Source of the DNA: Isoetes taiwanensis
Taxonomy: Eukaryota > Streptophyta > Lycopodiopsida > Isoetales > Isoetaceae
DNA length: 64,000 bases
Assembly: GCA_021234155.1 (NCBI GenBank)
Contig: JAJEKV010000101.1
Location: forward strand, 644,658 to 708,657
Direction: 5' to 3'
Shown here: positions 24,640 to 64,000 of the stretch, piece by piece
Numbering within the stretch: position 1 is the first letter of the stretch
How the letters are laid out: every line of letters begins with the position of its first letter
Position numbers and translations under genes: made by a program
The notes under the pieces: model-generated
Told to the model about the DNA's origin: nothing
Database searches by the model: none
What the model saw: the letters and a program-made list of their open reading frames with translations, nothing else

Positions 24640-25916
24640 CTATATAGATATCACCTTCTGCTCAGTTAAAAAGAAACATATTCATTGCAGCCAATTTTTG
24701 TGAAGCTTTTAGCATATTCTAACATGTAAGAAAAAAGATGAATGTGATCCAGACTTTGATAGAATATTTGAAGAACGGCTGCAGATAAAGTAGGCTTTTC
24801 AGATCAAGCCTCCATTATGTCAACATTATTGTTGCTATGTCAAGTTAATTCCCGGATATATATAATCTTAATGCTTTTTGTTGATGTCTGTAGTATTTTA
24901 TAACAAACTCGCTTAATTTATGAGGGGCCAATTGGTCAGAAACAATTCCATATACACAAGAACATGATGGCAGACATTAACCGATGAAGACGTACAAAAA
25001 CTAAAAAGCACACAGATATGGGCTTCAATTTTTAAGAAGCAAAATGCAAAGTGAGAGAACTAATACCTTGTGGAACTCAGACAATGCGCATTTGAACCAA
25101 AGAACTGTGTGTGCCACTTTAAGCCACAGAACCGCAATTTCAATCAAACACTTCCAATCAACATATCCTAGACCCTGCAAAATGTGAAACAAACTGTGAA
25201 AGGTTTTCCTGTGCAAATTGTGCACTTAAATTTTTTTTTGTCAAAGCCAATCCGTCTATGCCCTGCATTTCCATTTCGCACCAATTTATAATGCCATTGC
25301 CTATAGAAGTAGCACCTAGAACCGGCAGTAATCCTAGAATCAAGGAACCCTAACGAAATTACTTCTTCAAATTGTGGTAGAAGCTCTCGAATTAGAAAGC
25401 GTAAGCAAGAAGCTAGAAATCGATGCCAATTTATAACTCGTGACCGGTAACAAGATTGCGTGATTAAACGGGAGCAAATCATTGAAACGAGCAAAAGGAA
25501 TATTCCTCAAAGATTCCCTTTTTTTTAAAAAAGGGGGTAAAACGAGGTTAAAAAAAAAAAAAAAAGATGCATGAAATTCTATTTTGACCCCCCCAAATGA
25601 CTAATTTTTTTTTTTTGCAACGAAAGAATTGACTTTTTAAAGTGTCACTTTTCTTAGCAAATAGAATGTTCTTCAAGTATGTTTAAAGAGAGAAACTCTA
25701 ATTTCGTGAGGATAAAATATTTAACAAAAAAATTGAAGTAAGTCCAGAATCAAACCAGAGTATTCTCAAAATTTGAAGATAGAATCTTCATATTCACATG
25801 CAAAATTTACGCCTTTTTCTAAGACTCGCTTATGTGCAAAAGTGTGAGGAGGATGAGAGAGGGATCCAGACGCCTTCATATTCATTTATGCCATCGCCAT
25901 CACCTTCACTTCTTTC
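24640..25916. other. No supportable gene
   Basis: AT-rich, with A/T homopolymers near 25510-25620. Minus-strand open frames at 25025-25494 overlap one another in two frames and show no recognisable family. Confidence 0.4.
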
Positions 25917-28900
25917 ATCTGCCATCCGAGGAAGTGCTTGAGTTATCTTCCTCATCACTATCAACATCCGAAGCATTGTCACCACCTTCTTCATCATCTT
26001 CTTCAGTAATTACAAGCTTTTTTAAGCAAATTGATAGTCTTCAAGGCGTGAGACGATTGTCGATTTCAATTTAAAATCATAGCACAAAATAGTCACGCCA
26101 TTAAGGTTCAGCTCGTCCCTACAACCCACCTTCTTGACTTTCTCCCTTTTCCTTGGCTTCTCATTTCTAACTCATATCTACCTTCAAAAGCATTTTCTCG
26201 AAATGTGTTGCAAGCCAATGAATCTTGAGTTTAGTGACTAAGCCTTCCTCCTTGACTGTGTCAAGCACTTTTGCTATCCGTAATCTGGCCGACCTTTGTC
26301 ATCCTCCTCGCCGGAAGAGCAATTAGCATACCTTTGGTAATTTCTCGTGATATTACCTTGAGGCTCATTCCTCGCCTTGGTCCGAGGTACATGACTCGGT
26401 CCTCCTCGCCTTTCTACCGCAGTGCAAATGTAGCACCGCTTTGGACCTGCTTTGGTGTCAGGGGTTGATGGAAGGTGTTAGGCCATTGAAATGGTTCTTG
26501 CAACCGCCTTAGAGCTATATGTTGTACAACAATTTTCTCGCTCGAGAAAGAAATTACTCCACCACATCCCATCTTCTTCTAAGAAGTACTTAAAGCCCGA
26601 GGAAATTCCATTTTCAATGGCTTTTAAGGATGACTCGGGGTACTTTTCTTCCCGCTTGGACTCCTTAGGATTTTTGAGAGGAAGTTGTTCAAAGACGCTT
26701 CTATGAAGGAAGTGTCCGGAATGTATTTAAGGAAGCTGCATCCCTCCGGTGGACTCCAAATTTTAGTTGTGGTATACTTCTTCCCCTCGTAAGAAGCTTT
26801 GGCCATCCTTCAAGTAGAACTTGATATGATGTCGAAAGGTGAGATCATTCAACTTGTTCACAGCCTTTGTTCTCTGCTTGAACGTTGAGAGAAAAACAAA
26901 CTCTCTAAAATCAGCAGCCTCTTTAAGAAGATCGACCAATCGGAGTAGGAGTGTAAGAATCTTCAATAATTCAACTAAAGAAGGAAGACGTAAAAGCCTT
27001 CTTCCTTCTAAGGCCACGTAAAAATCTGGAACATTTGGTCAATCTGATCATGAGTGTGGCCTACAAGTAAGAAAACCAAGCTTCACTTTTCTAAAGATCC
27101 CTAGCTCCACTAACATGGCACAAGACGCAAAGAGTGTTTGATTCTTGTTCTCCCTGTAGTATTGTCAAGTTGCGATAAAGCACCGGGTGGTAATTGCTCT
27201 TGCTCGCATACAGACCTTGTTAAGAATTGTAATTGTGAGGTTCGGGTCACCATGCAAGTTTGGATACGCCAAAAATACTTTGCACTTTAGACTTCCTTTG
27301 AAGACCATAGCTCCTACAAGGTGGACCTTAACAAAACATTCCTCCGCACATCCTTAGGAATGTTCAAGAAATGTGGTAGAGTTGTTTTTTTGTCCATTCC
27401 ATCAATCACAAATGACATGTATTGCAAAGGGACGCTCAAGAGCTTTTTTTTCTATGCTTGGCAAGCTTTCTTCTCTCTCACGCTTGTTGTTCACGATGTC
27501 CGCAAGGTTCTCATTGTACAATATCTCAGAGAAGAAATCAGGTCAAAACATTTTCTCCTCAAACAAGTGAGAGATTGAGAACATGAGCTTACTTCTTTCG
27601 ACCTCTCGCCTTTGCGCTTCTCGTTGACTCTTTAATTCTCGCACACCTCGAAAGCAAACAGACATTCTATGTTTTCTAGGAATTTTCACAAGACCGAATT
27701 CACTTTTCCACACCGTGAAGTGTGAGTAAGAGATGTGCCAAGCCGAGTGCAAGTCTCTTTGTACTCATTAAAAACATCTTTTGGTGATGTTATCGCTAAA
27801 TGATACATGTTGTCAAGTAGGTAGCTTCTCACATGTTTCTCTAAAATATTTCTCCATCCATGACACACAAGAAGAAGGGCATGCATGGTTACAACTCTTC
27901 TTGGTCCACAATGATCATCGATTGCTGGATTTTTGTCCGCCTTTTGTGTATTCTAGACATTCCGTGGACCCTAAACGGTGGACAACCATAAAGCATTTCG
28001 CAAACTTCTTGACGGTTAATGTAGTGCAAGAAGGTGTTGCGGTCTGGTCTTACATGATAAGCTAAGTAGGCATTCGTCTCCGCCAATGTCATGGAACTCA
28101 GAAGTCTCTAACCGCCGTAATTTAGCCATATTAAATTGTTGATGCAACCCAATGAGCAGCATTTAGTTCTCAAAAGTCTCCTCATTTTGTGTTCATCCAT
28201 AAGATTTCTTCTTCTTGCAGAGGAGCACGCCAAACCAAAATCCACCTTGAATTTCTTTGAAGATTGGCTTGAGAACATGTAATCTCTTTGTTCCTCGTTG
28301 GTGTCTTCATCTTCCTGATGAAACTTCTACCTGGGGTGACTTCCTCCGTCCCCGAAAGTGGTGTGCTTGTAGAGGAAAAACAGACCACGTGAAGTTGTTC
28401 CCTAATAGGCTGGGTACAAGTTGTTAAAGGATGGTGATGGCCCATAAGAGGTTGTGGCATCACCGCTTTGTACCATCTTGAAAAGGAGTTCTTGCAAACA
28501 TCTCCTTTAGAGCGACCGAATTCTCAAGAATCCATGTGTCACAACCGCTTGTTGTGTGAAGAGGAGTGCATGCCGGAGCCGCCGTCCTCATTTGTAGTGA
28601 AGTCCCGGGTGAGAGAAATTGTAATCAATCTCACAAATTTCCGTGGTTTTCTCGTGGTTCCTTGTATGTTTGCAACGGCGGGGCTTAAACTACAAAAGGG
28701 GGGTAGCTTGTTCTTGAGCACCCTTTGTTGTGGAGCTTCAGAGGTCCCGGATGGAACAAAGGGTGGTGGCAACCCGTTCGAACCGGTGGTGATTCTTTGG
28801 AAGGAGATGCCGCAGGCCGCCTACGTGACTTGGTGACGGGTTGGAAGGGTGGTGGAAGTCTGCTTTGTGGCCGGACTCCTGTGTCTCTTCGAAGCAACAA

Positions 28901-29031
28901 CGATGAAGCGCAGGTAGGAGCCTGAGAATGCCGGTCTTCACTAGAAATGACGTTGTTCCCAAGCTGTCCTCGAACCGCACGAGCTTGAGACAACAAAAGG
29001 TGGTGGAAGCTTGTTCACGGCTGTTCGCCAT
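25917..29031 (-). pseudogene. DUF7869-like transposase-family gene, relic
   Basis: The minus strand carries, in the family order I recall: a start ATG in a good context (caagATGGCG, 29031); a Pro/Ser-rich N-terminus; a Cys block RTKCCSLGCINNLIWLNY (about 28165); YHVRPDRNTFLHYINRQEVC and GMSRIHKRRTKIQQ (28050-27930); FTVWKSEFGLVKIPRKHRMS (27700); SFVIDGMDKKTTLPHF (27410); AYPNLHGDPNLTITILNKV (27250); RENKNQTLFASCAMLVE (27150); GHTHDQIDQMF (27062-27030); KLNDLTFRHHIKFYLKDGQ (26830); ICTAVERRGGPSHVPRTK (26420); and an acidic C-terminus EEDDEEGGDNASDVDSDEED ending near 25917. The Asn-rich and GHTH..D motifs are the hallmark of DUF7869-type proteins, probably RNase-H-fold transposases. About eight frame changes or stops interrupt it. 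It diverges from the methyltransferase relic to its right. Confidence 0.65.
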
Positions 29032-29089
29032 CTTGACAACCGCAAAATAGTAAAGAGATTTGAGAAACTTTCTCAGAATGCGTAGCTTT

Positions 29090-29669
29090 TCTTATTCCCC
29101 GAATACACGCCAATGTAGTACAAGTAGAAGTTCCAAAGACTAATCAAGTGAAAGTCAAAATAAAAGCTATTCGAATACACAAGAGTAGGATAGTAAAGTC
29201 GAACGTATTCCGATCACATAGAAAAAGAGCAAGACGAAAATGATACCTTTAAAAGGAAATTTCTACGCTTTCAGCCATGTGATTCCAGCCTCTCGAAATT
29301 CAAGTCACCAGCCAAATACTTCGACATTATTATATTCAGAGATCAGATTCCGATTCACATAGAGAAACCATGGACAAAGTCGCTGAGAAAGTACAACGCA
29401 TAATCATTTGCATGTTCTGCTTTTTATTCCGAATACACTTTTTTTCATTCGGCTTAAAGTGTATTCCTAATACACTTTCGCTTTCGAAGGGAGGCTAAGT
29501 GTATTCCGAATACACTTTCGCTTTGAGTACTGGCGTGTATTCCGAATACACTTTCGCCTTTTAAAAAGTGTATTCCGAATACACTTTTTGCAGCTGTCGA
29601 ATACAGGATGAAAGTGTATTCCTAATACACTTTCAGAGAAGGCCAAAAAGTGTATTCCGAATACACTTT
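29090..29669. repeat. Array of palindrome GTGTATTCCGAATACAC between two divergent genes
   Basis: Near-perfect palindromes AAGTGTATTCCGAATACACTT centre near 29431 (partial), 29468, 29509, 29544, 29576, 29622 and 29658, some with a T for the central C (TTCCTAATAC). Half-copies occur at about 29099 and 29170. Spacing is irregular, about 32-46 bp. The array sits in the intergenic region from which the DUF7869-like gene (minus) and the methyltransferase gene (plus) diverge. Confidence 0.9.
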
Positions 29670-30301
29670 CGTGTTTTAGGTTTTAGGGGTTACTTTTCCT
29701 TTATGCTTTTTTAGTTAATTTAGGCGCTCTTGCTGCATTTTTAGCTTGTTTAGACCACTTTTTTGTCAAGATTGCAGTGTTTTTTTGACATTTTTGTCCC
29801 TCTTTTGCCCTCTTTTTCCCTTTTTTGTAAGCCATTTTGTATTCTCGAATAGTTCTTTTGCCACGCTTTTTTCTAACAAGGTCGTGTTTACACACAATTT
29901 GCACGCATACGACTCAAGCAAAGAAGAAACAAATGTAAGAAGCCTCTTAAAATCGCATTTAAACCGCACTCCCACAGAGAAGGGTTGAGGAGTCTGGATG
30001 CGCCCGCTATTTACTTAAAAACTTCCAAACTCAATGGTTTTTACAAGGGTACTTCGAAAGTACAAAGACCTCGACTTTTCTACATGTCCGTTTGAGCCCC
30101 GGAACCAAAAGGTACGATGACAGTGGAATTTGTCCCGCATGGGCACCATCCCGTCCGTGGAGTGAGGTAGTCGGGCAGACCAGTAAGGGAGGGAGATTGT
30201 CTTTTCGCATATCTCAAGGCTTTATTCATGTTGATGAATCCTACCTTAGACTTGTGAAGGTAAATCCACATCCTCTTTATAAGTATGTTTCTCACTACGC
30301 G

Positions 30302-33300
30302 AACAAGAGGTCGCCTTCATCATTAATTACGCTCGGCAATAACGAGCGGAGGACTTCCCCTACAACAGTCGTAACAAGGGGAAGAGGAAGATCAAGGGAA
30401 TTTATCGTGGAGTCCATCACGGTCTCATGAGCCCATCCGTGAGTTCATCAGTTCGAAGAGCAGCCACCTCCACCACCAAAGAAAGAAGCAGGCAAACCAT
30501 AGTCGCTAAAGAGCCTAAGAAAAGAAAAAAACGCTATCATTGAAACGTAAGATGCCCCCCGAGGATGCACACAAGAAGAAGAAGGGGAAAGGTAAAGCAC
30601 CGGGCGCTGCCATCAAAGAAAAAAAAAGTTGATAAAACAAAGAGAAAAATGGAAGAGATAAACCCGCACAAATTTGTGCAAGGTGTCATTTATTTGCCTG
30701 GTCACACAATTATGAAGCTTCCTCCAAAAATGAAGTCGGAGAACCACCACCGCAGTTCGAAAGATATATGCGCACCACCTAAGGAACCTCAAGGACGTAA
30801 TCCCGAGCAATCCCAATGCACATGTAGCTCCAATTGTTGTTCTTTTGTTGATAGAGAGCAAAGGCACAACTCCCCGCAGAGTACGATAGAGAAAATGCGA
30901 CACATATACGCATTATGTTTTGGGTGGGAACCACAAATTTTAAGGCAAGGAGGCAATTATACAAGGAAAAAAAGAATCCTAGGTACTTGTCCGTTTCTCT
31001 CAGGCCGCCTACCGTGGTTTGACCGACGAGGGAAGCCAAAATCGCTGCCAACACTCACAACGCCGACAACGAGTACAAGTTAAAAATGAGCTTTGTCGAC
31101 AAAAATCGATTCATGCACGAGAATATGTTATCTTCAAGGAAAAATATGGAGAGGATCTCAAAAGCCACAAGACTCCCTTGAACTTAAAGAAGCTTGTGCC
31201 ATTGAGTGTTGCCTTAAATACGACGAGGCTAACAAATCCGCATCACTCATTGGTCATGACAATTGGTTTCAAATTTAGCGCTCGTGGATGGCCGGTAAGG
31301 TTACAAGCTTATTCCGTAATAAGATTTAGTGTGCAACTAGCTTCTAAGTTTTTAATTTGTTTGCAGATCCGGGAGCTTCGAATCCAAATATTTAATATGT
31401 TTGAGCGCGGTGAGCTAAAAAGTAAGGGAAAGGTGTCTGAGAAGAAGAAAGGCAAATGACGCCCCAAAGAAAGAAATGACCATCACCGCCCTGAGGGAGA
31501 TGCAGGGGTTCACCGACACGTAATTACTAGAACAAAATTTCCGCAAAAGGTGGTGGACAAGGAGTTCACACTCAAGAAATGTCAAGGAGTTGCACAAGTA
31601 AGCATACAATCATTGCCGCCTTTTCACTTGTAGAATTCTCATCCCGCATAACAAAGAATTTAGTGCCCCGAAATGCTTTCGACCCTCGATGGAACGAAGT
31701 GTATTCCGTAATACACGCTCTCTTCTTTTGTAGTGTAAAAGTGTATTCCGTATCACACTTTTACTCCTTTGAGTCAAATAAAAACGATTCGAATACACAC
31801 TCTAACTTGTTATGCATTGTAGAAGTGTATTCCGTATACACTTTCGCTTCTTTCTTTGCGAAAAGTGTATTCTAGAATACACTTCGCAAACAAGAAAAAA
31901 TATTGATTACGCCATTGTATTCTAGAATAACTTTAGGTGGCGTGGAAGATAGTTTACTTCACGCTTTTCTTTTTCAACCGCTAAAAAGGTTGTGTTTTTC
32001 TTTCTAGCCAAAAAAATGTTATCACCGCCGTATGTCCGATGGAGCAACTCAACGGGAGACGGGGAGAGGTGCAAGGAGCTTTATCCCATAGCTACATCCG
32101 ACGAAAGCGCATGCTTCAAAGACGCACCAAATTTTGAAGGATGGGTACGCCGACTAAAACACGCCATACTTTTACTTGTCTCTGCCTCAATCTCCCCTTT
32201 GTTTGCGTAACAAGAAGAAAAATAAGGACCTGCCGTGTTTTTATGCACCTCGCCGACCGCACGAGAAGAAAGAACACCGGGCGAGAGGAGAACTCTAGAT
32301 GTGGAGCCTTCGATTATGAAAAGTTTAATTTATTTGACCAAAAATAATTTGTTTTCCATCATTCACTGGGACGCACTAATTTGGTTGGGACAAGAAAAGC
32401 CACAAGATTTCACACCGGGGTGATTGCGACCTTCCTTATGGCTTTAAACTAAAGGACGTACCATTACGACGACCACAAATTTTTAAATTTTCGTGAGTTT
32501 AACGCTTTTGCCGACGGATCAAACAAGTCACAACGCCAAGCATCGGGCGCCTTGTCGTGTTTCACTCGAAAGCATGCAATCGCCTTGTGGAGTCCACGCT
32601 TAAAACTCACTTCGATCCCCAAAGGTAAGCCGGTTATGAGAATTTGGTTTGGTGAGTACTTTTATTCGAATACGCTGGGCTTGTTTCTTCTTTTTGTTTT
32701 AGTTTTCTATTCCGTAATATAATTGCCTTTGACTTGTTCTCTTTGTTTGTTTCTTGTTCTCGCTTTTCGCTAGTGACACCACTCTAATTTCTACAGGTAC
32801 AAAACAAATATAAACTACCATGGCGGGCGGGCCGAGATTGCCGAGTAAGGTTGAATACCTCCATGTTGCTTACTGAGTTTCATGGAAAACGCACCATGGA
32901 GCATTTTAACACAAAGAAAGATGCCGTAATTTTTCTAATGTGTTGGAATTTCCAGTGTTGGCTTCAAAAGCTATTGGGACCCTAGTGCACAAGGTAGAAT
33001 TGTTAATCACTACCGTAAGCCTCAAAAGCTAATCAACCATCTCCTAGACATGTTTTCACGCCCGTGAGATTGGGTGCTTGATGCCTTCTCGCTCTCGTAC
33101 AACAATAGCTTGTGCACTTAGGAAGGGCCGAATTGTGTAGCAAAGGACATTGATAAAGAAGTCGCGGCAATTCATCAAGATGAGACCGGCAGCCTTGCCT
33201 ACCCTACCGATGAGCACCAAGAGTTAGGGGCCAAATCCTCATCCGATTTTGCCAAGCCGACCTCTTCTCGAGATACCCATTCACTAGCTCTTTAGAGGAT

Positions 33301-33461
33301 GAAGCTACTTTTGCAGAGCTGAAAGAAGTGGCACTAGCTACCATTCCTCAAGACACCGCAAAAGTAGACAAGGGTAAGGCACAAGAAAAGGATCGATCAG
33401 AGAATCGGGCACGCCAGAATCAAGCAAAAAGCATGATGAAGACTTTGATTTGGACCTTTAG
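30302..33461 (+). pseudogene. Beta-class (N4/N6-type) DNA methyltransferase gene, relic with introns
   Basis: The C-terminal half has the permuted motif order of beta-class DNA methyltransferases (PF01555-like). Catalytic motif IV is CDLPYGFKLKD (32425-32457, a DPPY variant), then RLVVFHSKACNRLVESTL. EYLHVAY (32852) and NVLEFPVL (32937) follow, then YRKPQKLINHLLDMFSRP (33011-33064) leading into the S-adenosylmethionine site DWVLDAFS (33067-33090), with SRTTIACALRKGR in the next frame and NCVAKDIDKEV after another shift. The GxG of motif I is damaged (SRTT), so it is inactive. Upstream are an RG-rich stretch, Lys-rich DAHKKKKGKGKAPGAAIK (30558) and a long linker. Introns with GT-AG ends lie at 31295-31366, 31598-32007 and 32625-32796. 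The 5' end is uncertain. Eukaryotic relatives of this class are rare. Confidence 0.6.
31695..31930. repeat. Second GTGTATTCC(G)TAATACAC palindrome cluster, inside an intron
   Basis: Copies at about 31698 (GTGTATTCCGTAATACAC), 31740 (GTGTATTCCGTATCACAC), 31788 (half), 31824 (GTGTATTCCGTATACAC), 31866 (GTGTATTCTAGAATACAC) and 31917 (half). The cluster lies within the 31598-32007 intron. Single copies of the same motif type also occur in the 72-nt intron (ttattccgtaataa, about 31311) and in the 32625-32796 intron (attcgaatacgc; tattccgtaatata). Confidence 0.85.
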
Positions 33462-34518
33462 TCCTGCCTTTTCCAAAAAACATTAATAATTTCGACCACC
33501 ATGTGATGTTACAAATTGTATCATTGAAACACTCTTCATTATATAATAATTATTTTATTCACTACATTCGGTGTTTTCAAGATAGTACTTTTTGAGAATA
33601 CAAAAGCATGTCTAAATTCTTCCCTTTTCAAGTGTTGGTTTTGGCAAATTCCAAGTTATTTTACACTAGGGGGCCAAAAAGAGGTAAAAATTTACAAGGA
33701 AGTGATGTCATAAGGGTTTTTTTTTCTAAGAAAAAGCCTCGCTAATTTTACGGTTTTTTCGCCGTCTTCGCCCTTTCCTCAATCTCATATTTGGCGGTTC
33801 AAAATTGAAATTGATGACAAACACTCAAAATCTCTTTAGTATAAAGAAAGATAATTTCTAAGGTTGTTTTTTGTAATATGTTATCAAATTATATCTTTTT
33901 GTCCCAATGTTCTAAGTTTATGATGTCATAAGTTTGAACAATTTGCCCTTGTGTTTTGACCGGAAATACATATAAAAGATCAAAGGGTGTGTTTTAAAGG
34001 TACTCAACTTTTTATGTGACGCCAGTTGGTCTTTGGAAACTGAAATTTTTTTCGCCGTCATAGCACTTCACCCGCCATTTCCTCCGGGCTTCAAATTATT
34101 TTGGTCGATCCGAAGCCCGTGAAATTGCCACTTCAATCGGGTATGGTTGTTGATCCGCGGCTTTGCTGATGCGGGTGATGACGCCATGTTCGCAAAGCAA
34201 TTTGAAAGTAAATTTGGCGGTTTTGAAGTTCTTCGTGAGTATAAATACCATGAATTTCTTTGTTTGCTAGATTTCTCCAATTAAATATGGCGGAATGGAG
34301 AGAAGCTTTTCGTGCATCCGTGTGCAAGAATCAAGTTAATTTTGATGTTGCAAAACCGCTATCTAGCCTCCAAGTTTTCCAGTCGTCGACCGAAAAAATT
34401 TTTTTGCGCTTGTTCCCCGGTTGCTGATGCAATTTGTCGACCAATCCGCAAGTGCATTCAAGAACAGAGCCAACAAGTTTCGTGCCGAATGCAAGCGAAT
34501 TTGTGCTAGATATTTACC
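33462..34518. other. No supportable gene between two relic genes
   Basis: AT-rich 3' flank of the methyltransferase relic followed by unrecognised sequence. Minus-strand frames at 34068-34327 overlap in two frames and lack motifs. Confidence 0.4.
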
Positions 34519-46799: not shown

Positions 46800-49659
46800 A
46801 TGGTGCCTCTCCAACTCAGGATGGTGTGCAACATATTGAAAAGAGCAATTTCAATGAAAAACCAACTCCTAGCAAGAATGTTGAAGAAAAACAATTAGTC
46901 CTCCATAGTAGGGTGCAATGGAGGAACAAGAAGGTGAGAATCATGCACAAGTGCAACAAGGAAATAGTAGGCCAAGGAGTCATTGTGCTAGCGTGATCCC
47001 CGGTCAAGTCATTATGATGATAGGCTAGGGGAAGACAATATTGGTATTGCAATTTCTTTGTTGGAAGACAACCTAAAAAGGTAAAGGTTTGGGTGACAAG
47101 GAATGTTTTGGTTGTGTCAAGCAATTGAGGTTCCTTGCATCATGGCATGGCCTATAAGTAGTGTTCAATTTGTGGAGGATTATATTTTTCCGTGAGCCCG
47201 AGGTTGTTGGGGACAATGATTGTCTTGATATTGATCCATTGGCGCTTGGAACTCTAAACCCTAGGCAAAAGGGGAGAATTATCCTAGCAAAAGAGCCAAG
47301 TTGATTAGTGACACCAAACGTGAGACAATGGCGAAGGTTAGGGGCTCAGAGTGTTGTTGGAGTGGTTGTATGCAATTCTTTACAATAGAACAATTGGTGG
47401 AAGCAAGAGCCACTTTTCAAGAGTATATTGTTGATGAGAAGAGGACCTACATGTACACAATCTTCGAGCATGCACTTCAGGATGAAAGAAACCCAAACAG
47501 AAAAAGATACCCTTTGCTAGGCAAATGGATATGTCCAAAAGCATGGCAGAATATCCATGCAATTCCAAGTTCTTCATGGCATAATTGGCAAAAAAATAGG
47601 CAGAGGGGAACAGGATTGCTTTACATGGAAATAATGGTTTGTTGAGACCAACAACTAGGATCTTGGTCGCCAGGAGATATTTGAAAATATATTGATTTCA
47701 ATGCAGTCTATGCCACACAAAAGCGTAAGGGATGAAAAGGGAAGAGCAAAGTTGTTGAGAAAAGGTTACCATCACATTGTACTCAAAAGAGTATTTTGGA
47801 AGAAGTGAATTCCTACTGAGAATTGGAAATTCTTCCAATATCCCAACCTAGCTTTAGTAGGCTATGGAAGAAGCATTTCAATCATGTCACCATAGCAACT
47901 TCAAACAACTTTGCAAAGTGCAATTTATGTGCTAAGTTGAAGGAGACTCTTGATAAGATCAGGCAACCTAGTCAAAGGGCTAGGATAAGGGAGCATATGA
48001 AGGACCATATGACGACCAACTATCATGTAGATTATGTTATTGGATGTGGAGGACTTTATCCATTGGAACCTAATAACTATTTATGTATTATACATGACAA
48101 GATGGACCAAAGAAAAAGACTTGTCTTCCACAATTCAAGTACATACCAAAGTCATGTGGAAGATCATACCCTTTACAGATCTCAATGACTGGGGCAATCT
48201 TGGATGGGCAGACTCAAACCTACTATGGCCATTTTAGTTTGGAGTTGTGGAGTGATGGTCCAGATTTTCATATTGGGAGTATCATGAGGTGTTTGAGAAA
48301 CTATGAAAATGGGTACAATGGTCACCTCCAGGACCCTACAGCTAGCCAAGCACTACATAGAGCATTGTTAGATGGAAACCCTAACAATATTGAAAAGTTC
48401 AGCAAGGCAAGGTTTAGGAAGCATGGGTCTAATGAACATGTTGGAGCTTCAACTTCACGTGCTAGAGCTCAAGATCTACCCAAAAGGTTCCTCTTGCAAC
48501 TTGATAATTGTGCTGGCCAAAATAAGAACAGGTGGATGTTTTCTTTCCTATCCTACTTAACAGCTGTGGAGATATTTGAAAGAGTTAATTTAGGGTTTCT
48601 TATGCCCATGAGGATGTGGATGCATTATTTGGCATATATAGTTGTATACTGAAGCAGCAGACAGCCACCAACTTTCCTAGGCTAATGGAGATCTTGCATG
48701 AATGCACTACTCCAAACCCTATAGCTTCTCTCAGAGAAGAAGTGCCTGATTGGAAGAGCTTTGTGGATGGTTATACATTGGATCTTGAAGGTCATTCCAG
48801 GCCTCTGCAGTTCACTTTTGGGTGAGAGATGGGATTCCAATCTTCCAATGAAAGATGAGACCTTCGAGGAGGAGGGAGGGAGGGGAGGAAATATGGCGAG
48901 ATGAGAATGACAAGCCTATGATACCTCCGTGTCAACCAAAAGCTCTAGAACCCATCAAGAAGTGAAGCAATTGGGATTGACTAAGGAAGGAATCCAGGAC
49001 TATATAAACCATTGGCAAACCAATCCGTGATGACACCAACCGCCTTGGTGGCTTACTTGGAAGAAGGTGATTAACCCGTTGGGGAGATAGACACATCCTC
49101 GGATGAATTGAAAGAATGATGGTTGCCTAAAAAACTAGGTGGAAGACCTTAGCAGGTGCTGAGGATGTTGATGACACTGTTAGTAGCATTCGTAAGCAAT
49201 ATGCTCCTCCTCCTTCTGACAAACACTATGTTGGTCCTAAGAACAATAGGCCAAAGTTTCTAGGCATGGATGCTTATGAACCTTCCACTGACTTGGAATG
49301 CCACCAATTTGTGGTAGTAAAGCCAGCAGATTTAGATATATATCCAGTGTGGTTGGGGTTCACTATCTCTGATATTTGCAAAGAAGAAGGTAATATTAAC
49401 TTCAACCATGTGCGGGTAGAATGGTGGTGTCCAGTGCATCAGTTGACCAACGTATCGGATAAAGAAAGATACCGCATTGTTGGACAAAGAGATGGAGGAG
49501 AAATCGAAAGTGATTCTCGATCTTTGGCTAGACTATGAAAGTGTTTTGTACTCATGGACTCCAAACACTATTCCAGCTAGAAATGCGAGAATTACAATAC
49601 CTCGGGATGTCAGGAAGAAGGCTATGATATCTTGGGGTTGCTTGAAGAGAGTTGAATAA
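46800..49659 (+). pseudogene. Second DUF7869-like transposase-family gene, relic
   Basis: Plus-strand blocks in family order: IALGTLNPR-like text and KRAKLISDTKRETM (47300); Cys block GSECCWSGCMQFFTIEQLVE (47340); MYTIFEHALQDERNPNRKRY (47450); SFSRLWKKHFNHVTIATSNN and FAKCNLCAKLKETLDKIRQ (47850); NNYLCIIHDKMDQRKRLVF (48070); MTGAILDGQTQTYYGHFSLE (48185); LLQLDNCAGQNKNRWMFSFL (48490); HEDVDALFGIYS (about 48610, after a frame change); and a C-terminal part VRVEWWCPVHQLTNVSDKER (49410) ending SWGCLKRVE at 49659. The DNC.GQNKN and H(T)HEDVDALF motifs define the family; the relic at 25917-29031 has RENKN and GHTHDQIDQMF at the same places. It needs only a few frame changes but has stops in the N-terminus. 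Confidence 0.65.
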
Positions 49660-52967: not shown

Positions 52968-53675
52968 ATGACTCTTATCTCTTCCAAAGAGGATTTACTA
53001 TGTACACTTCGTATGCAACATCTGCGTGAACAACATGGGGTTTTTTTTTATTCATTTTTTGTATCGCATACATATGGAAAAAAATATGGTTTTCTTCAAT
53101 TCAAACCCTTAGAAAACATTACGGCTTTCAGATTTGTACGTATAGAACCTATCCCTGGTCAAAAAAGGGAGGAGGAGGAAGAGGTCATAGTGAGAGGAAA
53201 GAGGAAAGCAGCACCTGCAAAATCGCAAGCTGCAAAGAAACCAAAGTCAACTAAAGCTTTGACCATCGAGGAGTCTGCAGAGGCCATTAAAAAAGCACCT
53301 GGTGCATACATTGTTTTAAGACCCTTTGATAGGTCATGCGCAACTTTGAAAAGGGTCAACGAGACGAAACTTTTGAAGCAGACTATTTCTCTTTCCATTT
53401 AAGAGGCCACCTAAAAATGAAGATGGAGTTAGGGTTCCTCAAGCCATAAAATATTGTATGCTGTGCATGTGGCAATATTTAAGCAGAGAATGCATAGAAA
53501 TCTACATGCTCACGTGTCGCCACTTGTCGTGATGGTTGATAGAACACAAATCCAAGAACTAAAACGTTACAGGAAAGCAGACTTCGAGGACTACACTCAC
53601 TATGTTTTCGTTGGCACACATAGCTACACGGCTAGGAAGGAACTGTCGAAAGAAGAAAGTAGAAATGAGGTTTGA
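52968..53675 (+). CDS. Unknown open frames with basic/acidic linker
   Basis: A 144-residue frame (52968-53402) reads LQFKPLENITAFRFVRIEPI, EEEEEVIVRGKRKAAPAK, KKPKSTKALTIEESAEAI and TLKRVNETKLLKQT. A second frame 53454-53675 follows after a gap (DRTQIQELKRYRKADFEDY). Composition is protein-like and the basic run resembles a nuclear-localisation signal, but I recognise no family. It may be exons of a decayed gene or part of a mobile element. Confidence 0.3.
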
Positions 53676-53759
53676 AAACCCTTTTAATTTAATCCATAAT
53701 AGTCCCAAGATACTCATGGTGACGTACCATGGTATTTGTACGTATACTATATAAATATG

Positions 53760-56236
53760 TGGAACGTCATAGTGACCTAGTCTCATGCTTGATACTAAAA
53801 TCTCCACCAAAAGGAACCCCAAGCAACCTGGTACTAGTACCCGAAGGAACAAGATTCCAAAGATATTGAGACAAACAAGCCAATCCTAGACTATCCAGTG
53901 CCTAAATTGCATTACACTTCTACCAATTCAACAGACAACCTAAGGCAAGGGAGAATATGTGCAAGAGTTGTTTAACTGCGTCATGATTATCTTCAGTAGC
54001 CTCCACCAAAAGAAACGTATCATAAGCAAGTTAGTTGCAAATTATTTGAGAGCCCGCAGCCATCCCCAGACCAGCAACAAGACCATTTTCCAATGCTCTC
54101 CTGAGCCACTGCGAGAGTCCCTCAGTTATAATAGTGAAGAGAAATGGGGCAAGTGGACAGCCCTACCTAATGCCCCTTTGAAGATCTGTGATGGATGCCC
54201 TTGAAAAAGAACTGCACATTTTCCAGACAATGGAGGAGAAAGAGGGGCTGAAACCTAATTTGTCCATGATGTGAGGCAAGAGCAGCCACGAGAAGCTATC
54301 ATAAACTTTCGTAAAATCCAATTTCAGGTACCAGTTTCCCTTGCCCAATCCATACCCTCATATGCCGCAACAACATTGTCCAAAATATGTCTACCAGGCA
54401 TAAACTAGTATGTCTTCACTAATTGAGACCGCCAAAATCTTCTTTAACTTTTCTGTGTAGGCCTTCACTATGATCTTGTATACTACTAGTAGCAGGGTAA
54501 TCGGCCTCCAATGAGAAATTGCAGTAAGCTCTTTAACCTTTGGGATCAAGATAATTAGACATGTGTTAAGTATCTTATCCAATTGATGAGACTGCAACAG
54601 ATCCCGATATGCTTGCCACATTATGTCGGATGTTCAATCTCAGCAAGACTGAAAGAAATCAATGGGTATACCATCCACGCTAGGACACTTGTCCTTGGCC
54701 ATAAGGAATATTGAAGACTCCAGATCTGCTTCTGTGAGAGAGGCCTCGAGTTTCTACCACTGCATAGGAGAGATAATAGGCAAAAGTTTGGAAAGTACAA
54801 TATCCATTGCCTCCTTCTAAAAGGGAAGTGTTTTTTTCTGGAAGAAAGACATGAAATGCACGACAAGGAACTGCTCTACTTGGTCAGATGCGAAGATGTA
54901 GCTACCATTGTCCATCCAGATGGAGGCGAGAGCTGAACTTTGGCATCACAGTCAAATGGCTGAGAAAAACAATTTTTTGCACCTATCACCCTCCGCCAGC
55001 CATGAGAGGCCTACTTTAATTTTGCCTACTTTAATTGTGTCCGCTTTGATACTTTTGGATTCAAGTTCACAAGTCTTACCGACGTCCAACTTCTCGAGCA
55101 TGAGACACTTCCTGAAGTCTAATCTGCTCCAGCTCACTATACTTTTGGTTCAAAAGGTGCTTTTCCTGTTGCACAAAGTTCCTACCCCACTGCTTCGCGT
55201 AGAGCTTAACATTTGCCGCGTTCACAAGTTTCCTTATACGGCTCGGATCAATGGGCATGGACTTCCAGACCCGACGACACCCAGCAATGGAATTCTCGTT
55301 TTTCAAATATTGGATATTCAGTTTGAACACAGCGTTACCAGGAGGACACGCCGGGAGATCCACTGAACCAATTATCTAAGGATGATGGTCAAAAATAGTC
55401 TGGAGAACATAGTTTTTACCATGAAGTCCAGGAAGCATATGCCAAACATGCATATTGGCATAGCACCTGTCCTGCCTAGTTGTAGCACGTGCCTCCCCTT
55501 CCATTGCACCACGTGAAGCCCTGGTCACCTAAAATCTTCAGGAATCCATGCTCAAACAGGAGCTTATTCCATTCATCCTTCTTAAAACCTGAAATAGTCT
55601 CACCACCACAAAGCCTATCAACATTGTCCTCAACCATGTTAAAGTCCCCAAGAAGCAAGTAGGCTGTATTATCTCCCCATTTTTTCCAGCTTATTCCTCA
55701 AAGAGGCCCATATGGGCACCCACTATCTAAGCACATTGGAGGCATAGTCATTTATGATACTCCACACCTATTCATGTTGCTTCCAATTGATGGTCGACCA
55801 CCTACCCCACTTTTCCTTTGCTGCACCTTGGTGTCCAGCGAACATGAAATGAAAGTGACACCTCGGGACTGATCAGATACACTCGCAAACCCAACATGAT
55901 GATGGTCCATAAGGTTTAACAAGCCACTAATGGATCCCCTACAACATTTATGCTCTTATAAATACAAGATCTGCAGAGTCAAACTTCTAACTATGAATGA
56001 TGCTCTCGCCCTTTTTGGAGGGGAGGACTTGAGTCCCCTTAATTCCAGATGATCATATTCATCCCAAAGGTGAAGCCTCTAAAGTACCTTTTTCTTTCTT
56101 CTCTTTGAACCTTTTTGAACCTGTTGGAGTTGGGTGTCATCGCCATTGCCAGCTGATCGGCTCGGCACAATGCATCTCCATATCCCCATCTCAAGACGCC
56201 CACTTTATTGGCTCCCGAATCCAAGTTCATAACCAA
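53760..56236 (-). mobile_element. LINE (L1-type) ORF2 relic: endonuclease and reverse transcriptase
   Basis: Reading down the minus strand: FRGFTFGMNMIIWN (56080), the start of an apurinic-type endonuclease; LLGDFNMVEDNVD (55655) with the GDFN metal-binding motif; a decayed SDH-like FDHHP (about 55395); a long linker; then reverse transcriptase blocks AYRDLLQSHQLDKILNTCLI (54615), HWRPITLLLVVYKIIVKAY (54520), WYLKLDFTKVYDSF (54335) and RGIR.GCPLAPFLF (about 54165). The FADD catalytic box is degraded (LAYD), and STRLLGVPFGGDFSIK (about 53830) follows. The C-terminal part beyond about 53760 is absent and no poly(A) end is seen. Several stops interrupt it, so it is inactive. Confidence 0.85.
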
Positions 56237-56259
56237 GTGGTTCGGCCGCTAACCGGAAA

Positions 56260-57050
56260 TTGGGCTGGGGCTTAACCCACTTGGTTCGAGGGGCCATGAG
56301 GGCCCGCGGGCGGGCCGCCGGGCTTGGCGGATCGGCGGTGTCTCCCTACCGGTTCGCTAGTAACCCACACCCTAAGTTAGTTGCAGTTTGGCAAAAATGG
56401 AGAGGGCTTACAAGCTACAGCACGCTGATCAATTTACCTTCCTGCCGCCTCGGGCTTAACCCCGCACGTTATTTGCCACAGGTGGGTCGTAGGCTACCGC
56501 CTCTCGGGCGTAACTCGGCTGGCAAGATTTGCCAGGCCGCAGGGTACGCAAGGCCGGTGGTTTATTTAAGCCGCTAATGGGTTCGGGCGCAATAACCCCT
56601 CGCAGGTGCCCACGGGCCGCACGGGCCGGGTGGCGGGGGCTGACGCTGGCCGTTTCACACCCCGCGTTTCGTGGAGCTCAGGAGCACGCGCCCATGGAAT
56701 CGCAACTCGAGGATTATAAATAAATGGAAGCTAAAAATTTTTTCTAGAGAATTTTATGCCTCGCTCCTGACGCTTCTCCTTCACAGGCAAAAGCCGAACC
56801 AGGCCCCTCAAGCAAGAAGAAGCTCCGTATAAACTCCAGCTTGATCGATTGAACGTGGCCACTTTGTTGGCTCCTTTGTTGGATCGATTGGAGAACGTGG
56901 CTCCTTAGCCCTGTAAAAACAAGTATTTCGCCTTCCTTTTTCTTTGTTTGGAACGATTTTGAGTTGCATTGAGCGATTTTGAGTCTTGTTTTGAGCTCCA
57001 TTGACAAAATTATAAGTGTGTTTCGCATAAGTGCATCTAGGTTCCCTATT
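56260..57050. repeat. GC-rich block with GGGCTTAACCC-type repeats
   Basis: GGGCTTAACCC occurs at about 56268 and 56452, with gggcgtaactc (56507), gcgcaataacccc (56588) and ggttcg.. companions. The same motif recurs at 63320-63860, so the two blocks bracket the GC-rich broken-ORF region between them. No gene is supported in this block. Confidence 0.55.
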
Positions 57051-57239
57051 GCCATCCCTATTGCTACAGTTGGTGAGAGTTGCCCATCATAATAAAGTTT
57101 GTTTCCTTAAGTGGGCTTATTTATATTTGTTGAAGCTTATTTTTATTTCAGTTAACGTTGAACTTATTTTTATTTGTTGAAGCTTTCTTTTTATTTATTT
57201 TTCTAAAGCTTCTCTTAAATGACTCATAATCACCGGAAT

Positions 57240-59656
57240 TCAGATATCTATTTCGTGAGCAATCTACATTTATCCGCCAAAGACCATGTCTCACCAGAGC
57301 GCCCCCGGTCGGCATGGATGAGCCGCCCCTTGCCATTTGGCCTGGCAGAGCGCGCCATGTCCCCGGACGACGGCAGAATTTGTTGAATGGTACCCCAACC
57401 GGCACCGCCTTTATCCCGCCAGGTATGTTTTGTGTGCTTGTTAACCGTATTTGTTTTGTGACAGGGAATACCATGGCATTTGGTGCCCGTGCGCAGGGTC
57501 ACGCCTGCTGAGAGCGGCCGGCCCACACCGCTGCGTTGTGGGGCGGATTTGCACAAAGACCGGGTGTACACACTTTGTGGATAGAAGTCGCCACTCGGAT
57601 TCGATTCGGGATTGACCGATGGAGCTTGGGGGCACCATCGTGAGCCACCATGCGGATCAATGGTGGCCCGGCGCATGCACATTCCCGCCAAGGGCAGCGA
57701 CCCCGTAATTGCGGGAGAGAGTGGTGTCCGAGCCGGAGAGGGCTGCAAAACGCCGAGAAGATCCCGCAAAAGCCGCGACGATGATGGGAGGCCGCGGGGC
57801 GACATAGAGAGGCGAGGAGACAAGGAGCAACAACGATGCGCCTTTACAAGATGTCCTCACCCCTCGAGGCGCCTCTAGATGCCTTCCCCGAGGGGCCGGA
57901 CGCCATGTTTTATGAGGCTAGCACACAAAGATGTGCGGGAGCGCCGAGAGGATGCAGCCCTATCATGAAGGTCGAGATTAGGAGTAAGAGCTAGTGGCAC
58001 GTGGGCGCTAAAGGTGAAGACTGACTGCGACATGTTATGCTCAATGACCTGCCATTGCAATGCAGGATCTGGGTGGCCATTTTCCCAATGTAGTAGGGAG
58101 GGAGTTAAGGCTGAGTCCACAGATACGGAGTCTCACAGGTTACGAGGCTGAGTCATCTTGCCACCGAAAGCATCCACACTCCAACCCGATCCTCCATTGC
58201 CCCTAGAGGTGAGTGGGTTTGCGTATGGCTGGGAAGAGTTCCAACGAGGTAGGACCACGCCGATCCGTACCCCCTACCAGAGACACGCCCCAGCACGCCG
58301 CCGGACTGCATGGCCACCCCCTCCTTCCAGGGGCGCTGGGCGCTGGTGATTGTGGTGGACCCGGCCGAGGGGTCGCCAGTGTCCTCGATGATATCATGAG
58401 GACGGGCGATGGCGTGCACGGGCATGGCACACACATTGACTTCCCCATTTCCGCGATCGCAATGTCGAGGGAGCAGAGGCATGGATAAGAGACCGAAACG
58501 CCGTTTTTTCATATGTACCATACCAGAGAGTTCGGACAGCACACCATCCGAGCTACTACCGTGTGTGTACCCATTCGAGGATGGTCTCGTACCTACGACG
58601 GCGATTCGACGCGATTCCCGAGCACTTACGGATCCCGGCTAGGTTACATCTTCGTCCCTTTCGAAGAGGTTAGGTGTTCACGCGACTTTTACGGCCCGGA
58701 GATCACCTAACACCTTGCCATGGTTGGGCGGTGGCGCCGGATGGTGCGCGACTTTGATATTGCAAGAGGGCCCAGGCCAAGATGCGGCGCATAGGTAATA
58801 TCCGACCTCCTCGAGGCGCGCGATGGACAATGGGAGGAGGGGCACATTCGAAAGGTTGATGAGGTACGTGTCGGGTTTATGTTTATTTGTATGGATCGAT
58901 AAAATCGATATTTGGCGTGTGCTTATATGTATAGCGGTTCTGGCATGCTTGGAGAGGCCGAGCGGCCGCGGAGTTGATGATAGACCCCGTTACTATCAAT
59001 TAACTATGTTCGGGCCGGTGTCGAAACGCCCCTCCCAGGAGTGCGCGCTCCCACCTTCTTCCCCGGCCGAGCATCCCGACCGTGCACTACGCCCGTGCTT
59101 TCGCCCATCGTCACACAGGTAAGTACTGATTCTTTGCTCTACTTTCAATTCCCGAGGCAATCCCTCCGACTTAAGGGGAAGCGAAAAGTCATACATCTTT
59201 TTGGCGCGCAAAGTGGTCATTGGATGCTTGTTGCTCTCATACACGATCCGCCGACGCGGCGCACTTCTAGGCCTCGGAGATGACGCATCACGTGGGCTGG
59301 TGGTACTTTCACAACATGCCTTCACGGGCAGGGAGTACGCGCATCAACCTACCGGCGCGGGAGTGTTTCCTAGTCCCCCCGCTTTTCCCAATCGTTGCCC
59401 GCCACCAGTGATCCGACACCGTGACTTTTGTACCGGTAATCATTGGGTCTTCGAATGGGGGCACCGGTTACATCCGGATGGTGCTGCCTCAAATGTCGCG
59501 GGCCTCGTGATTGTGCCGCTGCAGGTCGACAACAATACGTGGCATGCACATTGGTTTCATCATCGCCACGGCGTGGATCGCGTGGGCAAACCCGCCTGGA
59601 TGGCAAGTTATACCGATAAGCGTTTGGTTGGTACAACGGCGGCGTATGTTGTTTAG
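57240..59656 (+). pseudogene. GC-rich cluster of broken plus-strand frames, unknown
   Basis: I do not recognise this gene. Plus-strand stretches with protein-like composition include TTAEFVEWYPNRHRLYPA (about 57370), LDAFPEGPDAMFYEASTQRC (about 57867), GRWALVIVVDPAEGSPVSS (about 58335), RSRLGYIFVPFEEVRCSRDF (58640), a plausible intron 58865-58935 (GTACGT..TATAG), MFGPVSKRPSQECALPPSS (59010) ending at a GTAAGT donor (59120), and GNHWVFEWGHRLHPDG to LVIVPLQVDNNTWHAHWF (59440-59550). VVDPAEG has a faint resemblance to a methyltransferase DPP motif, but nothing else supports that. GC-rich DNA keeps frames open on both strands, so some of these may be chance. Confidence 0.3.
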
Positions 59657-59802
59657 GAGTGAGTGGCCCGTAGTAGTCGGGCTGCTTTTATTGTAGGTGT
59701 ACCGGTACCAACAAAGAGTCGGTGGTCACTTAGTGCCGTTTGGGATCTATCTAGCTAAAAGCTTTTCTCCTCCGAATCATGTAATCATGTATGTAACATT
59801 AT

Positions 59803-62440
59803 ATGCGACATTATTTATGTGACAATGCTATGAGTGATGGCATATCAGTTTGCCGTGGCCTCTCATTCGCAGGGTCGTGGTGGTTGTTCCTCACAAGGGT
59901 CGCCTTGCACGCTTTATCCTGTGACTCCACCGCTGGCATGTTCTTGCCGCCTATCAGAATCAGCCATGAAAGACGCAACCGGGGCCGCCGCGCCTCTATA
60001 GAATCGTGATTCATCATGTAACCTTGATATACTTCAATGCGACATCTCCCCGTCAAGAGCATGAGCATCTTGCATAGTGGCTTGCATACCGACGCTCTAC
60101 TTCATGAGCAACGATCCCATTGCTTTTTGTAGCAGCGCATGAGGACATCGACATCGCTCATTGGTGCGGGCGGCCGCGAGGCATGGGCTAATGAATTGTT
60201 TGCTGGGAAATAGCTCATTGTACAATGCGGGTGGTCACAGGCGAAATAGTCTCCCCGCTATGAGATGCTTGCACACAAAGATGAGGGTATATTGGCAAAT
60301 GCGCAATATCGCATCCTCATATGCTGAGCGCCAGGATTCAAGTACCCTGATGATGTGGCCTTTTGTCCATAGAGAAGCTGAAATTAAAGCCAAATTTGGC
60401 ATTGTAGGCTTTTGGCATTTGGCTCAGCTATCAACTCGCATGTACCGCGAAGGCTACTGCCTTCTTAGCATCTCCCCGCCAAAGCGCCGGAATGATATAT
60501 TTTTACACGCGACGCTTCGCTGCGGAACCAACATGCAAGAACATTGCCCGCAACCTTGCAAACCGCAGGCTATTGTTACGTAATGTGTCGACATAATCAA
60601 TGCACGGTCAGCATACCCGCCATCTTCCCAACAATGTTCGCCTTCTCCGACACAACCCTCGTGATAGCCCGCTCTCACAAAATTGGCCCATGTCAATGGT
60701 GGTGATTGACCTCGGCCCCGATTGTTTCATTCAATAAGACAAGGCGAAGGCCATCTTCGTGGCATGTCGTTGGTGCCTCACGGGCCTCCACGCTTCGCAT
60801 AGCATGTAAAACACCTGGTACTCCCACACCCCCTAAAGTGAACGGCAGGTACAACCGGGCCTCAAGACAGGAAACTTCCACGATTTGTACGTAAGGTTGA
60901 ATCCATGGTGGCTCAACCACCGCCAGCCCATCTCACAAAGAAATTCTCCAACATCCTCGGCCATCTTGGATGACTAGGATCCATGGTCGGGTCCAACGCT
61001 CGGCAAGATGGATTCCAAGGCTGGTGAAAAATCACCCTTCCTGAGGCTTCCAATCGCCAATCCCGCCTCGGTCACCACCATATTGATTTAGCCCTGATGA
61101 TTATTCGCAGTTTAACTAAGCATTCTTGCTAAATCGCCAAATAACGCCATCGCTCCATAGTAAAGATTTATCGCTGGAGCTTACCGAAAGTATTCTTCCT
61201 CTCGCTTGTGAGGGCTAATTCGCTACACATCCTCCTCATGCCTACTCGTGAAGCGGTATGTGACTCTCAACCGGGCTCACCGCCGCATCGCATTTGTGGT
61301 CCGCTCTTGCGATGTCCCACGCAAAGACGCGTCATTCCAATACTTCTAAGCTCTAGTGCCATGTACCATGAGTTCGTGATGCACGCATGGACTAATCTTC
61401 CGCGATTGGTGAAAGCGATCATGGCTGTGTTCGGTATAACGTATATCCGCACCATTTCCATTATCTTTCACTGGCCCCTGTAAATCCAAACAAGCAACCT
61501 CAAGGGTGGGACCGTCTGATTTGCCTATCCTGTCCCTCTCCCAAGGTGGTTGCCTCCATCTAAGTGGGCGTGCATAGTCATCCACAATCTCGGCCTGTCA
61601 GGCCAGCCTCGACATGCTGATGTCCATGGACCAAACGGACACGATGAGGCGTTTGAAGCTCAATCACCCTTTGCTCGAGGAGGTCCACGCGGGTCTCCTC
61701 CGGCTGTGAAGTTGAAGTCGGCCGCCCTTCATGGTGCTTACTCACTTTGCACGCGGCACACTTCCATGCATGCAGCTATGTATTCCCCGGGATGCCATGG
61801 CGCAGCACTACCTCCCATTCCTTCCTCAAATCTTTTCAAACGGGCGTAGGGGACCGATGGGTGCTTCCATTCAAGGCCTATGGCAAATCCAATCGCCCAA
61901 ACTCCACGAAGGGACTAACTTATGAGGCCTAGCTGCGCCACGCAGATAACCAAATTGAGTCATCATTAACCGCGAAACTCTCATAATATGCTCTTAACGG
62001 CAGACATCAACCTCGACATGGTGCTCGGGAGCAGTGGCCTCCCGCCTCATGTAGACCGGGGCAAGAGGGGATCGCAAGAAGACTTATTTCTACGTGGGGA
62101 ACATAGTGTTCCTTTCAGAGGCAATGTACCTCATCAACCCATACACGCACTCGCTGAGGGTATAACCACCCGGGGCAACACGAGCCATTGAACTGGGTCC
62201 GGGTAGACACCGCCACTCTATGTACAAGCGCCTTGGGAATTTTGGTCGTATAACTTCGGAGTTAACCTCGACCAGCGGGTTCCACCCGTCATCTACATTA
62301 TCCCTGTCCTCCTCCAACATTGTGTCAGTCATCCTCGCTGTCGAAGGTCATACTCACTATCATTTTCATCTCGACATCTCAATCGACCGAAATGCCGCTG
62401 ACTACCTCGCCCATTCTCCTCCTCGCTTATAGCAATCATA
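59803..62440 (-). pseudogene. GC-rich cluster of broken minus-strand frames, transposon-like, unknown
   Basis: Minus-strand blocks read ISEEENGRGSQRHFGRLRCR (about 62405), VDDGWNPLVEVNSEVIRPKF (62290) and PRRLYIEWRCLPGPSSMARV, VDDYARPLRWRQPPWERDR (61585), SDGPTLEVACLDLQGPVKD (61520), PPWIQPYVQIVEVSCLEARL (60910), then NSLAHASRPPAPMSDVDVLM and RCYKKQWDRC (about 60200-60120). The last block resembles, from memory, text in repeated KDZ-like transposon proteins of seed-free plants, but I am not sure. Each block is in a different frame, so this is a heavily broken relic. It runs toward the plus-strand cluster, so the two are convergent. Confidence 0.3.
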
Positions 62441-63890: not shown

Positions 63891-64000
63891 TGCCATTCAA
63901 GCACCGACCAAGAAGCATCCGAGGCGTATCCTCGGATCACCTTCATCAAGCCGCTTCACAAAGAGGTGAGGTCGCCCATCGCTTCCGCCCATCTAGCTTA

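Follow-up and report, generated by a model that had tools for sequence, protein, structure and literature searches.

Fusions of a ParB-like domain and an N4/N6 DNA methyltransferase are already known from algae as transposon genes. The 21.5 kb element Sola1-1_Ec32 of Ectocarpus carries such a gene on the strand opposite its transposase, similar proteins are reported for transposons of green and red algae, and the Ectocarpus protein has been proposed possibly to bind and modify the DNA of its own element (PMC12477816; this and the other reports cited were available in part, and statements about them refer to that part). Here we describe a DNA transposon family with a gene of this kind in the lycophyte Isoetes taiwanensis, starting from a decayed copy in a 64,000-nucleotide stretch (contig JAJEKV010000101.1, positions 644,658 to 708,657, forward strand), referred to throughout as the window.

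Three further groups of described systems bear on this family. In the VANDAL elements of Arabidopsis, the element-encoded protein VANC21 binds a short motif that recurs in the introns, the intergenic regions and the terminal non-coding parts of the element that encodes it. Different motifs serve VANC6, and DNA methylation is lost in response to VANC (PMC5735166). Sola elements have 4-bp target-site duplications and inverted repeats, are mostly 2–9 kb long and occur in moss (PMC10741241). Bacterial-type amino-methyltransferases are found in the bdelloid rotifers as N4CMT, with a catalytic SPPY and a chromodomain (PMC8885841), and in the liverwort Marchantia as MpDN4MT1, an N4-methylcytosine (4mC) methyltransferase (PMC8566409).

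A methyltransferase gene carried by a DNA transposon

The feature in the window is a DNA transposon copy that has decayed and is truncated on the right; its kin have terminal inverted repeats and 4-bp target-site duplications. A first-pass annotation had marked a methyltransferase relic at 30,302–33,461; these bounds are too narrow, the unit being the transposon, from 25,449 to ~33,697. Five copies cut from the genome at 20 kb have one unit in common, about 8 kb long in copies B and C, and five complete copies of lineage 1, the one of three element lineages that includes the window copy, measure 6.4–8.4 kb. The element in copy C starts AACAAGATTGCGTATTAAACGGGAG and ends CTCCCGTTTAATTTGCAACCTTGTT, and its left part encodes, on the minus strand, a DUF7869 transposase (PF25273, E = 1.1e-46). 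The terminal inverted repeats of lineage-1 copies are imperfect and ~25 bp long, and identical 4-bp flanks (AACT, CATT, GGTA, AGTC, TTAA, TCTA and TATC) surround all but one, L017, of the eight lineage-1 copies in which both ends were found. By its ends and size, the Isoetes element is Sola-like.

The gene family is large in this genome (1,658,258,908 bases in 1,110 contigs searched), so that the earlier description of such genes as rare in plants fails for I. taiwanensis. PF01555 matches amounted to 1,444 candidates, of which the best 150 were scored, many of them in open exons; for the ParB-like exon the best 150 of 3,176 candidates were scored, at 80–100% identity. Window positions 31,990–33,347 match at least 39 other genomic places at 85–94% identity (40 of 1,164 candidates scored). 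When the best 150 of the 1,444 methyltransferase candidates were set against the best 150 of 9,907 DUF7869 candidates, 24 methyltransferase–DUF7869 pairs lay no more than 20 kb apart, against 0.54 expected under even placement; the transposase was upstream on the opposite strand in 22 of these 24, in 17 cases at a distance of 4.9–6.2 kb.

Spliced exons e3–e7 from two copies that are open there encode 669 and 668 residues. The C-terminal half matches PF01555 (3.4e-18; a further related open copy gives 8.9e-16), phrog_67 (1.8e-25) and, in PDB, CcrM (6e-10). Motif IV (D[LI]PYG) precedes motif I (DAFSGSGTT, present in all five rows of the methyltransferase alignment). The first-pass annotation had called the relic a bacterial-type N4/N6 methyltransferase with motif order IV then I, interrupted by spliceosomal introns and possibly part of a mobile element, not an enzyme of the host. 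The peptides that it quoted are present in the window as frame-broken pieces, and its PF01555 assignment held for one kind of query and not for the other: ten raw fragments of the window had no Pfam match, whereas the spliced exons of the related open copy gave the value above, and the identity of the relic therefore rests on its genomic relatives. The motif order is likewise borne out through these relatives, seven of the eight introns cut from two related copies are GT–AG (in one copy, the e4–e5 intron has no AG where its alignment to the second copy would put it), and the shared unit, inverted repeats, 4-bp duplications and transposase linkage agree with a mobile-element part. As to the two motifs that it had named, the predicted FxGxG of motif I is there as FSGSG, but the expected DPPY is replaced by D[LI]PYG. 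It had noted neither the ParB-like half nor the palindrome arrays described below, nor that the element carries a transposase on its other strand, has terminal repeats and is present in many copies.

The open exons of the methyltransferase gene are under purifying selection, since their ratios of nonsynonymous to synonymous substitution (dN/dS) are low: the median was 0.106 for e7 (range 0.051–0.797; 18 copies, 54 of 153 pairs usable) and 0.097 for e6 (13 copies, 19 of 78 pairs), and the value for e4 was 0.201 (8 copies, 12 of 28 pairs). Within e7 the catalytic core gave 0.043 and the tail 0.271. These ratios come from a hand-written Nei–Gojobori count in which pairs with dS outside 0.05–1.5 were dropped, and from stop-free copies with at least 90% of the exon covered, some of which are broken in other exons. 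Because of the transposase linkage, the fixed arrangement and the purifying selection, we conclude that the methyltransferase gene is a kept part of the transposon, divergent from the transposase. Many copies are broken, as might be expected if the gene were passive cargo, captured and useless to the element; however, the low dN/dS, the fixed divergent arrangement and the same e3–e7 order in three lineages, at 38–72% identity by exon, make this already disfavoured explanation very improbable. Even less credible, and likewise disfavoured already, is a host methyltransferase, like the 4mC enzyme of Marchantia or the N4CMT of bdelloids, that was copied by chance into repeats. Such an enzyme would belong to the same broad class (PF01555), and 4mC enzymes do exist in a liverwort and in rotifers, but the gene lies between terminal repeats and 4-bp duplications, is present in many copies and is linked to a transposase, all of which argue against it, as does a catalytic motif differing from the SPPY of N4CMT.

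Palindrome arrays and their candidate reader

The family comprises three lineages. Lineage 2 (L044, L045 and L053) has a ParB-like exon of 51% and an e7 of 55–56% identity, with a transposase core of 65–77% in pieces in L044 and L053; the 10 kb read of L045 contains no transposase piece. Lineage 3 (L054, with the transposase in L052) is 66% identical to lineage 2 in the ParB-like exon and 72% in e7. It is a young lineage, as its transposase copies are up to 97–99% identical, and at 3–4 kb from its ParB-like exons, on the opposite strand, stand lineage-3 transposases (paired by eye; examples are C1036:5,947,787, C1051:11,725,213, C919:8,695,594, C1084:2,819,058, C1039:7,202,021 and C1068:482,109).

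Each lineage has arrays of its own perfect palindrome of 14–18 bp, GTGTATTCCGGAATACAC in lineage 1, GTATGAATTCATAC in lineage 2 and GTATAAATTTATAC in lineage 3, located between the divergent genes and in introns. The outer arms, GTAT-N6-ATAC, are common to all three, whereas the central hexamer (TCCGGA, GAATTC or AAATTT) is lineage-specific. With the same word read backwards over the whole genome as a control, the lineage-1 18-mer has 2,585 exact sites against 0, the 16-mer form of lineage 2 has 13 against 0, and the lineage-3 14-mer has 12,556 against 17. Among the copies read, the words are nearly lineage-exclusive. The lineage-1 core occurs in 12 of 17 lineage-1 copies and the words of the other two lineages in none of the 17; the window copy and L016–L019 have none of the three exact palindromes. 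Five lineage-2 palindromes are present in each of L044 and L053 and four in L045, and in near-misses of this lineage the variation falls mostly on the one arm position by which the lineage-2 and lineage-3 words differ. The lineage-3 palindrome occurs five times in L052 and twenty times in L054. Two further copies, compared by the positions of their matches, agree roughly with this layout: C4 has lineage-3 words round its ParB-like exon at 9,956, at offsets roughly as in L054, and C50 has lineage-1 words ~1 kb and 3.6–3.9 kb from its methyltransferase match.

In eight annotated copies, none of 71 sites falls within the placed exons, which make up 60% of the span (by tblastn bounds, which missed the 5' exons e1 and e2 in L054 and e1 in L051 and L053). 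Twelve of the L054 sites are located well upstream of those exons that were found, and another, at 1,460, falls immediately outside the e3 open frame; the e3–e4 intron has three and the e6–e7 intron four. Beside its 20 exact sites this copy has three sites with a single mismatch and no site with two, and their flanks vary. Beyond the palindrome core, complementary flanks were in excess at arm positions +6 and +7 of lineage 1 and not clearly in excess in lineages 2 or 3. In ten lineage-1 copies the central CpG has been lost to TpG or CpA in 11 of 72 sites, as expected if the central cytosine were methylated in the germ line, a pattern that does not point to any particular enzyme.

Bacterial ParB binds palindromic parS. 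We lean towards the view that the ParB-like methyltransferase encoded by the transposon reads the palindromes of its own lineage and marks its own DNA. Our working hypothesis is that the ParB-like part would bind the palindrome of its lineage as a dimer and load the methyltransferase onto the element, where the enzyme would write N6-methyladenine (6mA) or 4mC into the DNA of that same element; this mark could label the element promoters as own and so keep them active against host silencing, or it could autoregulate them. As palindrome and enzyme have diverged together, each lineage would read mainly itself, and the palindrome arrays may thus let the enzyme recognise its own element. More tentatively, it is possible that the whole forms a self-recognition code in bacterial style, in which the ParB-like methyltransferase of each lineage is matched to its own palindrome, set in arrays in promoter and introns, and places a mark other than 5-methylcytosine (6mA or 4mC) on its own copies only, silencing being thereby evaded.

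A number of observations weigh against this hypothesis, some of them through the protein itself. The motif IV consensus in N6_N4_Mtase is [DNS]PP[YFW], and the D[LI]PYG found in all five alignment rows and in lineage 3 does not conform to it. We assign the N-terminal exon to a ParB-like domain with moderate confidence, from its similarity to phage families and its sequence pattern (VLGG[NT]HS.KAR...TDEEAK..A..HN). The E-values are modest: 2.4e-5 (lineage 2) and 3.3e-3 (lineage 3) against phrog_1033, and 0.011 for the lineage-1 part against phrog_723. A 107-residue piece of the lineage-1 region matched no ParB-like family. In Pfam the ParB-like part did not match PF02195 and gave DUF6551 below the cut-off (0.005–0.06) together with chance-level matches, an unrelated family, also below the cut-off, ranking above DUF6551 in lineage 3; a phmmer search of PDB gave a single unrelated match (0.16). 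Among the elements, no copy of 15 was open in all eleven exon pieces probed, the best preserved being copy C (ten of eleven), L047 (nine) and L054, cut in its right part only, which is open in e3–e7. Terminal repeats and target-site duplications were established on lineage-1 copies only, and two lineage-2 copies, L044 (C1037) and L053 (C1034), each contain one intergenic palindrome of lineage-3 type.

Other points bear on which protein reads the palindromes. The main rival to the ParB-like methyltransferase is the transposase or a host factor: the palindromes would then be operator or enhancer sites for one of these, and the ParB-methyltransferase would have another job, such as placing a mark on the element after its excision, or impeding methylation by the host, independently of the palindromes. 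Here, too, some observations count against our hypothesis. L052 (C1103:965,501–975,500) has kept its five promoter palindromes beside the transposase, with no methyltransferase gene in the 10 kb read; it is possibly an internal deletion derivative. Moreover, transposase, methyltransferase and palindrome have all diverged in parallel across the lineages, so the anatomy does not tell which protein reads the palindrome. On the other side, in all five complete lineage-1 copies measured (L017 and L018 left out) a distance of 1.9 kb or more separates the palindromes from both element ends, unlike sites that pair transposon ends; many lie inside the introns of the methyltransferase gene itself; and a DUF7869 remnant at 47.8–48.6 kb of the window that is without a methyltransferase has no such palindromes nearby, though this is a single relic. 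We therefore regard a transposase or host-factor reader as somewhat unlikely, and retain the ParB-like methyltransferase as the candidate.

The window copy, its decay and its surroundings

The transposon copy in the window occupies 25,449..33,697 (8,249 bp; no strand assigned). Its left end is kept; on the right, the last ~115 bp, which would include the inverted repeat of that side, are missing and were not found elsewhere in the window. From 25,449 to ~33,690 it is collinear with the sister copies L015, L016, L017 and L019 at 87.5–92.8% identity, with both ends aligned; relative to copy C, identity is 82% in the transposase half and 68–72% in the methyltransferase half. The left terminal inverted repeat, AACAAGATTGCGTGATTAAACGGGAG, is at 25,449..25,474 (+), aligned with four sister copies. 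A frame-broken DUF7869 (PF25273) transposase relic follows at 25,998..28,579 on the minus strand, where tblastn with four copy C peptides gave pieces with stops at 30–59% identity. The region between the divergent genes holds, at 29,425..29,669 (no strand assigned), a decayed palindrome array of six GTGTATTC-n-AATACAC sites, each of which lacks the complete centre.

The ParB-like and N4/N6 DNA methyltransferase gene relic spans 30,074..33,458 (+) in seven frame-broken exon pieces, placed by tblastn with exon peptides from related copies. These are e1 (~30,074–30,307), e2 (~30,430–30,699), the ParB-like e3 (30,764..31,275; so called from the open exons of lineages 2 and 3), e4 (~31,373–31,598), e5 (~32,064–32,144), e6 with methyltransferase motif IV, CDLPYG (32,212..32,652), and e7 with the motif-I region and tail, including YRKPQKLINHLLDMFS (32,798..33,458), all on the plus strand. 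The e4–e5 intron contains decayed palindromes over 31,699..31,882 (no strand assigned), with sites at 31,699, 31,741 and 31,865. Matches to the palindrome with three mismatches or fewer numbered 3 in the window against 0.03 expected, and none of the eight recognisable sites has the CGG centre.

Both genes of the window copy are frame-broken, as are all five of its nearest relatives examined. L048, of the same subfamily, is better preserved, being open in e3, e4, e5, e7 and two transposase pieces, with e6 broken. The decay of the window copy might be largely an assembly artefact, arising in young, near-identical copies that cannot be polished with short reads. In a pairwise comparison confined to the window copy, L015 and L016, the substitution-to-indel ratios are 2.5–3.6 and the transition-to-transversion ratios 1.0–1.3, against 8–30 and 1.6–2.7 in four better-preserved pairs, and many one-base indels recur patchily among six copies. 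However, three frameshifting indels in methyltransferase exons are common to all six sampled subfamily copies, 666 substitutions relative to L048 are common to all five copies in a comparison run without L018, and the window copy lacks its right end. We thus consider a largely artefactual decay unlikely, while part of the private damage of the window copy may be assembly error. The one-base indel excess in L015, L016 and the window copy may reflect an unpolished long-read assembly in near-identical repeats.

A separate fragment of a lineage-3 ParB-methyltransferase gene is present at 53,199..53,678 (+). It consists of part of e2 and the start of the ParB-like exon with one stop, and is 81% identical over 75 residues to the lineage-3 exon (E = 2e-35), the e2 piece being 28% identical over 74 residues (E = 4e-4); remains of two element lineages are therefore present within one window. 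A second, distant DUF7869 remnant lies at 47,766–48,649 (+; PF25273, 1.6e-17 at 48,098–48,649), and is not accompanied by any ParB-methyltransferase piece. The window has no perfect palindrome of at least 14 bp from 31.9 to 64 kb. From 56,001 to 64,000 the G+C content rises from ~0.40 to 0.51–0.55, and the three longest frames there have no Pfam match at E 0.01.

Comparison with known systems

The openly licensed literature, surveyed in part, yielded no report of a ParB-methyltransferase gene from land plants, nor any of lineage-specific palindrome arrays. In that literature no paper was found that combines Isoetes, Sola and transposon, and no mention of DUF7869 was found among the articles on Sola or transposases listed from it. 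ParB-methyltransferase transposon genes being a known kind, it is the lineage-specific palindrome arrays that are new, as far as these searches reach. If the proposed reading is true, transposon-encoded ParB-methyltransferases acquire a concrete target site (GTAT-N6-ATAC), and transposon anti-silencing is tied to bacterial-type DNA modification in a vascular plant. The disputed 6mA and 4mC of plants would then be testable at thousands of defined sites, with the palindromes of the other lineages as built-in negative controls.

With the bacterial and phage beta-class enzymes CcrM, MboIIA and phrog_67, the Isoetes gene shares the motif order IV then I and the PF01555 family, but it has D[LI]PYG in place of their DPPY. 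Phage relatives are 25–28% identical (15 listed of 854 phage records). Scanning a genome-contig collection with the methyltransferase alignment gave 53 pattern-matching stretches, none of them relatives, and a viral-contig scan gave 61 stretches with four weak relatives, matching at the motif-I end only (best 42%). N4CMT and MpDN4MT1 are, like the Isoetes protein, bacterial-type amino-methyltransferases in a eukaryote; unlike it, they are not described as transposon genes in the available parts of the reports (PMC8885841, PMC8566409). N4CMT has SPPY where the Isoetes family has D[LI]PYG, and its report nowhere mentions ParB (PMC8885841).

The Isoetes element resembles Sola elements, as the available part of their description presents them, in its 4-bp duplications, terminal inverted repeats, size and non-flowering plant host; its transposase matches DUF7869. 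Its likeness to Sola1-1_Ec32 extends to the gene, which is predicted to encode a two-domain protein and lies in a DNA transposon on the strand opposite the transposase. Unlike the Ectocarpus element, it resides in a vascular plant, is ~8 kb rather than 21.5 kb long, has a large copy number and has several introns in the gene. It also has lineage-specific palindrome arrays, of which no mention was found for Sola1-1_Ec32 in the available part of the report (PMC12477816). As regards mechanism only, it may be compared with VANDAL and VANC: in both cases an element-encoded protein goes together with a motif that is repeated in the introns and intergenic regions of the element and differs between families. 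The available part of the VANC report does not present VANC as a methyltransferase, and the VANC motif is non-palindromic, whereas the motif of the Isoetes element is a perfect palindrome and its candidate reader a ParB-like methyltransferase.

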